Made by a program: the position numbers and the translations under genes. The notes under the pieces were generated by a model. The model was not told the DNA's origin. It saw only the letters and a list, made by a program, of their open reading frames with translations, and made no database searches. Shown piece by piece: positions 3,025 to 4,189 of a stretch of 32,279 nt of DNA (within the stretch, counting starts at the first letter, position 1; each line of letters opens with the position of its first letter). Source of the stretch: Candidatus Pacearchaeota archaeon (GTDB lineage: Archaea; Nanobdellota; Nanobdellia; Pacearchaeales; GW2011-AR1); NCBI GenBank assembly GCA_016866935.1, contig VGKS01000008.1, positions 1 to 32,279 on the forward strand, in the 5' to 3' direction.

Positions 3025-3200
3025 TGCCCCTGCCGGGATTTGAACCCGGGTTTCCGCCGTTCTCCACCATCGCTTGCGCGACAGCCTGAGTTAACCATGC
3101 TGCTCTAGAGAGAGCACAGATATAGTCTCAGCGACATCACCTCGCATGCTGGTAAACCAGTTCGAGAGGGCGGTGAACTTGACCACTATTCTACAGAGGC
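3025..3200 (-). tRNA. tRNA-Glu(CUC) with 103-nt intron
   Basis: On the minus strand the 5' acceptor strand GCCTCTG (from 3200) pairs with CAGGGGC (3032-3026), with one G-U pair, and A73 is at 3025. D stem GAAT/GTTC, anticodon stem CCGCC (3173-3169) with GGCGG (3058-3054), T stem CCGGG/CCCGG with TTCAAAT loop. Loop bases 32-37 read CTCTCG, so the anticodon is CUC. An intron at the canonical 37/38 position (3162-3060) gives a clear bulge-helix-bulge: central helix CTCT/GGAG, bulges CGA and AAC. A TATA box TTTAAATA lies at 3231-3224, about 27 nt upstream, inside the end of the neighbouring endonuclease gene. CCA is not encoded. Confidence 0.9.
3060..3162 (-). other. tRNA-Glu intron (archaeal, BHB type), highly structured
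   Basis: The intron is 103 nt and carries three perfect short hairpins: CTGG-ttta-CCAG, GCTCT-ctct-AGAGC and TCGC-gcaa-GCGA. A longer pairing CTGAG/CTCAG encloses the middle one. A multi-branched fold is therefore likely. I found no convincing box C/D guide. It is removed by the tRNA splicing endonuclease, by analogy with other archaeal introns. Confidence 0.8.
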
Positions 3201-4103
3201 TTTCTTCTGAAAATTTTGTAGTCTATTTAAATGTTTATCGTTACTGAACCCTATTAGCTTTAAGTAAAGTTGAATATCTTCTTTCCTAGTAATAAATATT
3301 TGGTTTCCTTTAATTATTTTAGATGGATGAAACCCCAGTCTTAATAAAGATTCCCTGACGTCATCCAATAATTTTGGAATATAACTTGTAAAAGTTATAC
3401 GCAAATTTCGGTTATGTTTCGAGATGTAATGTATAGAACCATCTGTATCCATAAGACCTCTTAAACAAGCAGCGAGATAATCTTTATTTTCAAGAATCCA
3501 TGCAGGAATACCTTGTGAGTTTATTTTTTTATTTCCAGGCTTTATCCCTATTTTTTCAAAAAATTCAATTAACCTCTTTCCATTAACCACCAAGTAAAGT
3601 CCATTTCCATCATTTGAATTTTTAAACCTAGAATCATAATTAAAAAGTTGTTTAATCAGATTATTTACATATTTTCTTAGATAATTTGAATCTTTTACGC
3701 TATGGCCTGTTACTGTAAGAGAATATGATCTTATCTTTTTACCATTTTGATAGTATTCTAAATGTCCATCTCCTAAAATTATTCCACAAAGTTCAGCTAA
3801 AAAATTATTAAAAGAAACAGGTTTAAAGTATTTTAACTGTGATTCAACAGCATTTTTACCACCTTTAGATTTACCCCAATAATTTTCGAGCCTTTCTACA
3901 ATAAATTCATCAAAATTCTTTCCAGTTAGATCATTTAATAATTTATAAGTATCTTCGCTTAGAGTTCTAGTTTCCTTAAACAATTCGTTAACTAAATAAT
4001 TTTGATTTAATTTTAATTTTAAAGAAAGATCTTTCCAAGTCTCTTGCTTTTTTGCAAGAAGCAATAATTCTTTTTGTTTACCAAAAAGCAATTTTATTCT
4101 CAC
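3186..4103 (-). CDS. LAGLIDADG homing endonuclease inserted at tRNA-Glu 5' end
   Basis: The 305-aa protein has two LAGLIDADG motifs: ELCGIILGDG at about 104-113 and ACLRGLMDTDG at about 212-222, each with its acidic catalytic residue. It should act as a single-chain two-motif nuclease cutting a long asymmetric site. The first 95 residues are helical and look like an HTH-type DNA-binding part, followed by the WGKSKGGK linker seen in archaeal relatives. The start is GTG; an in-frame TAG lies just upstream. The last five codons (GCC TCT GTA GAA TAG) are also the first 15 bases of the tRNA-Glu gene, and a TATA box for that tRNA sits at 3231-3224 within the coding sequence. A second tRNA 5' end lies upstream at 4159-4139. 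The reading frame is intact. Confidence 0.9.
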   Translation of the reverse strand: MRIKLLFGKQKELLLLAKKQETWKDLSLKLKLNQNYLVNELFKETRTLSEDTYKLLNDLTGKNFDEFIVERLENYWGKSKGGKNAVESQLKYFKPVSFNNFLAELCGIILGDGHLEYYQNGKKIRSYSLTVTGHSVKDSNYLRKYVNNLIKQLFNYDSRFKNSNDGNGLYLVVNGKRLIEFFEKIGIKPGNKKINSQGIPAWILENKDYLAACLRGLMDTDGSIHYISKHNRNLRITFTSYIPKLLDDVRESLLRLGFHPSKIIKGNQIFITRKEDIQLYLKLIGFSNDKHLNRLQNFQKKASVE

Positions 4104-4138
4104 ATATCTCTAAATCATTAAAATATATAAATATTTCT

Positions 4139-4159
4139 TTACCACTAGACTACAAGGGC
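4139..4159 (-). pseudogene. Displaced 5' fragment of a tRNA-Glu-like gene
   Basis: On the minus strand the bases GCCCTTGTAGTCTAGTGGTAA resemble the true tRNA-Glu 5' end at 3200 (GCCTCTGTAGAATAGTGG), and the acceptor strand would still pair with CAGGGGC. The similarity ends in the D arm and AT-rich leader sequence of the endonuclease gene follows. It looks like the stump of the tRNA 5' end left after insertion of the endonuclease gene. Confidence 0.7.
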
Positions 4160-4181
4160 AACTATAACTCGTAATTTAAAG

Positions 4182-4189
4182 TATTTAAA
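4182..4189 (-). promoter_or_regulatory. TATA box of the displaced tRNA 5' end
   Basis: TTTAAATA is centred about 26 nt upstream of 4159, the correct spacing for archaeal transcription. This promoter probably now drives the homing endonuclease transcript, which may read through into tRNA-Glu. Confidence 0.6.

Follow-up and report, generated by a model that had tools for sequence, protein, structure and literature searches.

Can a homing endonuclease gene enter a tRNA gene and leave that tRNA usable? The question is raised by a 32,279-nt stretch of DNA from Candidatus Pacearchaeota archaeon (GCA_016866935.1, contig VGKS01000008.1, positions 1 to 32,279), which is called the window here. On its minus strand, tRNA-Gln(CUG) (4853-4779) is followed by a 183-aa gene, a tRNA 5' fragment, a LAGLIDADG gene and tRNA-Glu(CUC). 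A sequence-only reading of this locus had proposed a mobile element that uses the D arm as its way into the tRNA and supplies the promoter and 5' half anew, and had judged that this layout looks new.

An endonuclease gene that ends inside tRNA-Glu

The last gene in this order, tRNA-Glu(CUC), scores 47.5 bits against Rfam RF00005 (gathering score 29). Its anticodon loop contains an intron that the sequence-only reading had not mentioned. Because the intron is also present in the sister species (L136), which lacks the homing endonuclease gene (HEG), it is by this comparison unrelated to the HEG. Direct reading confirmed the claim that the LAGLIDADG gene ends inside the tRNA: the final five HEG codons, stop included (GCC TCT GTA GAA TAG), are tRNA-Glu bases 1-15, and the stop codon consists of tRNA bases U13-A14-G15 of the D arm. 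The TATA box that had been placed within the endonuclease coding sequence is indeed located there. This box, TTTAAATA, spans -31 to -24 relative to tRNA-Glu and is encoded by a conserved K-H-L-N-R stretch of the endonuclease. A second TATA box and a tRNA-like 5' end had been reported upstream of the HEG, and both are present (Table 1); the tRNA-like 5' end, here termed the stump, reaches p 0.003 against shuffles.

Table 1 Features of the tRNA-Glu locus in the window.
Feature	Position	Strand	Basis
tRNA-Glu(CUC), functional copy	3025..3200	-	Rfam RF00005; ARAGORN with introns; alignment to the HEG-free sister tRNA in L136
Anticodon-loop intron of tRNA-Glu(CUC), ~103 nt	about 3059-3161	-	
LAGLIDADG homing endonuclease gene (HEG), 305 aa, GTG start	3186..4103	-	Pfam; alignment; AlphaFold2 model
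HEG/tRNA overlap	3186..3200	-	Direct reading; recurs in relatives
TATA box TTTAAATA for tRNA-Glu, within the HEG coding sequence	3224..3231	-	
HEG leader, beginning immediately after the stump	4104..4136	-	A+T-rich TATA-like stretch; similar junction in relatives
Stump, original tRNA-Glu 5' half broken in the D-loop, GCCCTTGTAGTCTAGTGGTAAAG	4137..4159	-	Shuffle test; homologue in L136
TATA box TTTAAATA of the original tRNA-Glu promoter, now before the stump	4182..4189	-	Homologous promoter in L136

The encoded protein is a single-chain LAGLIDADG endonuclease with two motifs (LGDG and DTDG), the catalytic acidic residues among them, and an N-terminal helical domain. It matches PF14528 (LAGLIDADG_3) with E=4.7e-16, and both catalytic motifs are invariant across 18 aligned rows. 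The AlphaFold2 model (pLDDT 89.6) has PI-PfuI, I-Tsp061I and I-DmoI as its best structural matches, and the predicted fold stops just short of the tRNA-encoded residues. Fold and catalytic motifs are thus those of archaeal LAGLIDADG enzymes. Whereas these three are encoded by introns or inteins, the window-type HEG stands apart from any intron and reaches into a tRNA; its sequence includes tRNA bases and, for some members of the family, the tRNA promoter as well. In-frame stop codons interrupt the HEGs of some relatives, and that of L153 is in pieces; such decayed genes fit a cycle of gain, decay and loss, as in the homing life cycle.

Related endonucleases precede tRNA genes

Relatives were chosen by protein similarity, not by tRNA proximity. 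The window endonuclease was first used to search 139 related genomes. A profile was then built from 18 full-length relatives and applied to 200 genomes at the level of the order and 378 at that of the class, and 60 further loci were fetched; the genomes are MAGs, some of them incomplete. The sequence-only reading had advised looking for other tRNAs preceded by LAGLIDADG genes, and this layout recurs widely: among 115 non-redundant loci from the same archaeal class, the HEG directly precedes the 5' end of a same-strand tRNA in 82. The remaining HEGs are convergent with a tRNA (7), follow one (5), are divergent from one (2) or have no nearby tRNA call (19), although several in this last group show, by eye, an intron-rich tRNA start at the HEG stop codon. 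The tRNAs at the HEG 3' ends of L061, L067, L070, L119, L121, L123 and L127 look intron-broken, D-loop included, and were missed by the tRNA finder. The 3' overlap recurs as well: in 47 of the 83 loci analysed, counting along the tRNA as called, the HEG stop falls at position 10/11 or 15/16 (U8-A9-G10 or U13-A14-G15). These are free-standing (intronless) homing endonuclease genes, located outside introns and inteins and near the presumed target. An origin from viruses was considered and rejected, as a scan for close relatives found no match in viral contigs; in genome contigs there was one, from a Pacearchaeota genome (L031) that is apparently the same as that of L002.

A mirror layout is seen in L022, L023, L024, L089, L108, L124 and L135, where the HEG is antisense to a tRNA (Phe, Cys, Ile, Ser) and its frame reaches or enters the tRNA 3' end. 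When a mirror-image 3' stump was sought in the seven convergent loci, only the tRNA-Cys of L108 had one, upstream.

Insertion in the D-loop

Comparison with relatives lacking the insert was possible in seven within-genus locus sets that share flanking genes and contain both HEG-bearing and HEG-free alleles: L009 vs L138/L137, L047 vs L179/L181, L053 vs L178/L176, L050 vs L169, L044 vs L183, L049 vs L160 and L048 vs L167. In the HEG-bearing alleles, a 5' relic ending in the D-loop is followed by the endonuclease and then by a complete tRNA, while the HEG-free tRNA has no such break. The last set is the clearest, with a 36-nt insert at GGCCAA^GGATT in the HEG-bearing tRNA-Glu and a HEG-free tRNA that is continuous there. 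These alignments locate HEG insertion in the D-loop. The proposal of entry through the D arm is therefore borne out by the paired alleles, by the relic 5' halves and by the placement of HEGs at tRNA 5' ends.

Stumps upstream of HEGs occur far more often than in control windows. A strict D-arm-like pattern was found at 17 of 83 loci, where 0.18 were expected, and at 12 of the 31 loci of the Glu/Gln group (0.03 expected). In a generic shuffle test 20 of 82 loci reached p<=0.05, with the significance mainly in the Glu/Gln group; outside this group, stumps were mostly seen by eye. Because of this excess, and because the layout recurs across the related loci, the arrangement in the window is beyond chance. 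Many relics lack the acceptor strand, which is decayed in L009, L013, L044, L050 and L053, as expected of dead sequence. In L006, two successive tRNA-like 5' fragments stand before the HEG, the first resembling the start of the D-loop intron, which suggests repeated insertion.

The relics also bear on whether the locus is instead a very long tRNA intron, in which the upstream fragment would be exon 1 and an intron in the D-loop would hold both the HEG and the duplicated 5' half. LAGLIDADG genes are known from archaeal bulge-helix-bulge (BHB) introns, and D-loop introns do occur at the position where the stump breaks off. However, in the window the downstream D-stem strand GUUC can pair with the GAAU encoded by the HEG and not with the GUCU of the stump, and the acceptor strand of the stump has decayed in the five loci named above. 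Rather than lying between exons to be spliced, the HEG precedes a tRNA that is complete, and a short D-loop intron is present within some of these HEG-proximal copies. On the strength of stump decay and D-stem pairing, the long-intron reading was rejected as extremely improbable.

The closest sister genome, G002 (locus L136), was considered as an empty site and rejected, since it contains a stump and other cargo; the comparison of HEG-bearing and HEG-free alleles was consequently made in other genera. L136 has the same gene order as the window and a stump with promoter (Glu promoter and 5' half), and has no endonuclease. At L136:2876-3440 the tRNA-Glu stump passes, within the D-loop, into the 3' part of a tRNA-Gln, beyond which lie a 101-aa ORF with no Pfam match and then a promoter and tRNA-Glu. 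By homology, L136 supports the window stump as the original start of tRNA-Glu, and its junction may be the repair scar of a D-loop break. Repeats of ~84 nt are present downstream of the tRNA-Gln (L136:2013-2180), ending in a copy of the last bases of the tRNA, and similar-looking sequence is found downstream of tRNA-Gln in L009 and L010.

Promoter supply

In HEG-free Glu/Gln tRNAs, a TATA-like box most often starts at -31/-30. Near the endonuclease C-terminus, a conserved K-H-L-N/K-R/K stretch encodes a TATA-like box near -31 at Glu-target loci and in part of the Gln-UUG clade, and such an embedded box would serve the rebuilt tRNA. Overall, the HEG contains such a box at 18 of 31 core loci, where random windows taken from these genes lead one to expect 4. 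The 13 core loci that do not are all Gln loci, so promoter supply is not universal; within the 31 core loci analysed, no clear TATA at -31 was found inside the HEGs of the Gln-CUG clade. The idea that the element rebuilds both promoter and 5' half thus holds for Glu targets and for part of the Gln-UUG clade, and its promoter half is not clear for the Gln-CUG clade.

Target specificity

In a maximum-likelihood tree of 113 endonuclease proteins, the sequences group by target isoacceptor, not by host, across genera and orders. The groups include Gln-UUG, Gln-CUG, Glu-CUC, Glu-UUC, Gly-CCC, Gly-UCC, Thr-GGU and others, some isoacceptor labels of the deeper clades being automatic tRNA calls, which introns can mislead. 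ARAGORN names were wrong for several intron-bearing tRNAs of the Glu/Gln group (Ser, Tyr, Phe, Thr, Asn, His, Pro) and were reassigned from sequence. The HEGs of Gln-UUG, Gln-CUG and Glu-CUC form separate supported clades that span genera. More than one clade can be found within a host group: the G199 genome has HEGs of both the Gln-CUG and the Glu-CUC clade, and the genus of the window has a Glu-CUC HEG at the window locus and a Gln-UUG HEG in G001. As judged from this tree, the window HEG belongs to a large, isoacceptor-specific family of which each branch is tied to one kind of tRNA, and whose hosts are small symbiont-like archaea.

Altered D arms in HEG-linked tRNAs

A D-loop intron, or at least one extra base between A14-G15 and the GG pair, was present in 19 of 30 HEG-linked and in 6 of 57 HEG-free Glu/Gln tRNAs (Fisher p 4.9e-7, in a test that ignores shared ancestry), with D-arm classes assigned from the sequences by the analyst after the pattern had been noticed. 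Neither change was present in the other 11 of the 30 HEG-linked tRNAs. Within the paired alleles, an extra D-loop base distinguishes L009, L047, L053 and L044 from their HEG-free counterparts, L048 has an intron instead, and clear stumps retain the shorter D-loop. Close relatives thus differ in presence or absence of the HEG at one site, with an altered target in the filled allele.

The D-loop inserts share a fold resembling the bulge-helix-bulge (z -3.4 to -5.4), and the introns are presumably spliced. Set against the pattern used to recognize this motif (at the splice sites, a helix and then a ~4-bp helix set between two 3-nt bulges), most have a 5' AAA bulge and a GGYC/GRCU helix, and the 3' bulge is <3 nt in the lowest-energy fold. 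The window tRNA-Glu has a re-paired D-stem, GAAU/GUUC vs GUCU/GGAC in the sister. Because the HEG-free neighbour tRNA-Gln of the window has the same GAAU/GUUC stem, this change is weak evidence of resistance. The D arm of L153, with its decayed endonuclease, is ordinary. Taken as sequence comparisons, the linked D-arm changes are as expected of cleavage-resistant replacement. L146 and L187 are HEG-free tRNA-Glu/Gln genes with a D-loop intron that could be leftovers of earlier elements; no stump was found within 1.3 kb upstream of them.

These differences can be weighed against the view that the HEG cuts elsewhere, the space upstream of tRNAs being a tolerated landing site and the stumps the products of unrelated tandem duplications. 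Free-standing endonucleases of phage T4 do cut far from their own gene (PMC2988022), and the HEG-free sister locus L136 also has a duplicated Glu promoter and 5' half. Nevertheless, the clades are faithful to single isoacceptors across genera, and in several syntenic sets the D arm differs between HEG-bearing and HEG-free alleles at the insertion point. We regard cutting elsewhere as unlikely.

Proposed mechanism and comparison with known systems

The reading that we favour, and hold to be probable, is that tRNA genes are the home of a homing endonuclease element, which replaces the tRNA 5' half after insertion in the D-loop. The endonuclease would cut the gene of one tRNA isoacceptor in the D-loop; the fidelity of clades to isoacceptors and the insertion point bear indirectly on such a sequence-specific double-strand cut. 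Repair from a HEG-bearing allele would insert the endonuclease gene together with a new tRNA 5' half at the break, and the stump would be what remains of the old promoter and 5' half. To complete the tRNA, the 3' end of the HEG would provide a 5' half, often with a promoter; the HEG itself terminates on a stop codon made of conserved tRNA bases. The replacement would usually bring a changed cut site (a D-loop intron, an extra D-loop base or a re-paired D-stem), and therefore the element's own tRNA should escape re-cutting. Sequence comparison shows the anatomy, the point of insertion, the grouping of HEGs by isoacceptor and the D-arm changes that accompany them; cleavage, homing, resistance, splicing of the D-loop introns and use of the embedded promoter are what the scheme proposes.

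Parts of this scheme are known from integrases. pTN3-like integrases use the tRNA 5' half as target, and the rebuilt tRNA receives the integrase promoter (PMC8371274). The working principle of a tRNA 5' half as integration site, with an element-supplied rebuilt copy, is common to those elements and to the HEGs described here. This raises the possibility that a plasmid or virus was integrated by a tyrosine recombinase, either at the tRNA 5' half in the pTN3-like manner or at a tRNA in the pNOB8-type manner, with the LAGLIDADG gene as cargo; an insertion in a Caldiarchaeum tRNA-Thr has indeed been ascribed to pNOB8-type integration (PMC3293823). Yet pTN3-like integrases are tyrosine recombinases, belong to larger elements and leave the original tRNA restored, whereas in the core loci read here the insert is ~1 kb, with only the LAGLIDADG gene inside, and the D arm is often altered. 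In addition, the endonuclease tree follows the target isoacceptor, and site-specific recombination, which restores att, would alone leave the D-loop introns and extra bases of the HEG-linked copies unexplained. Integration of this kind appears very improbable.

The most similar anatomy, likened here by its published description alone, is that of tRNA-Thr(GGU) in Caldiarchaeum subterraneum, where a 5' fragment is followed by a 1.9-kb insert with an 813-bp ORF adjoining a same-strand tRNA; the insert-linked copy has an extra intron at 24/25, and SVMProt had classed the ORF as a putative DNA recombinase, with plasmid integration proposed (PMC3293823). Free-standing T4 endonucleases (SegB in the tRNA region, SegG) have host promoters embedded in their coding sequence, which favours retention (PMC2988022). 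As in our loci, the gene is outside introns and contains the promoter of a host gene. The T4 enzymes, though, are GIY-YIG or HNH proteins encoded in phage intergenic regions, cut hundreds of bases or more away (PMC2988022) and rebuild no RNA gene, whereas the tRNA HEG lies at its presumed target itself. In collaborative homing, a free-standing endonuclease is paired with an intron at its cut site (PMC2988022). What is alike is that the free-standing endonuclease is suited beforehand to a site where an intron inserts; the difference is that HEG and D-loop intron stand side by side at one tRNA and that the intron is optional. A literature search, mostly without subscription papers and bioRxiv preprints, found no description of such an endonuclease family. 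The novelty claimed for the layout is upheld to that extent, although the pTN3-like integrases and the Caldiarchaeum insertion (PMC3293823) precede parts of it.

We further think it rather likely that these elements are widespread natural "home-and-rescue" drives, in which isoacceptor-specific D-loop cutters carry a recoded, cut-resistant 5' half and generate D-loop introns and tRNA 5' fragments in archaea; they may also explain the disruption of the Caldiarchaeum tRNA-Thr. The HEGs described here make up a family of mobile elements that interrupt tRNA genes midway and yet keep the tRNA usable by encoding the missing half in the HEG. It would provide a testable source for the D-loop tRNA introns and tRNA 5' fragments of archaea, a long-debated question. 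Engineered drives exist that cut their target and carry a recoded rescue. The tRNA HEGs would be a natural parallel to such cut-and-rescue drives, and endonucleases whose tRNA targets can be predicted could be drawn from them. Finally, introns have been proposed to shield tRNA genes against mobile elements (a proposal discussed in PMC3293823 and PMC4033280); with the HEGs, this idea would acquire a concrete actor and, linked to it, a pattern of alleles that are possibly resistant.
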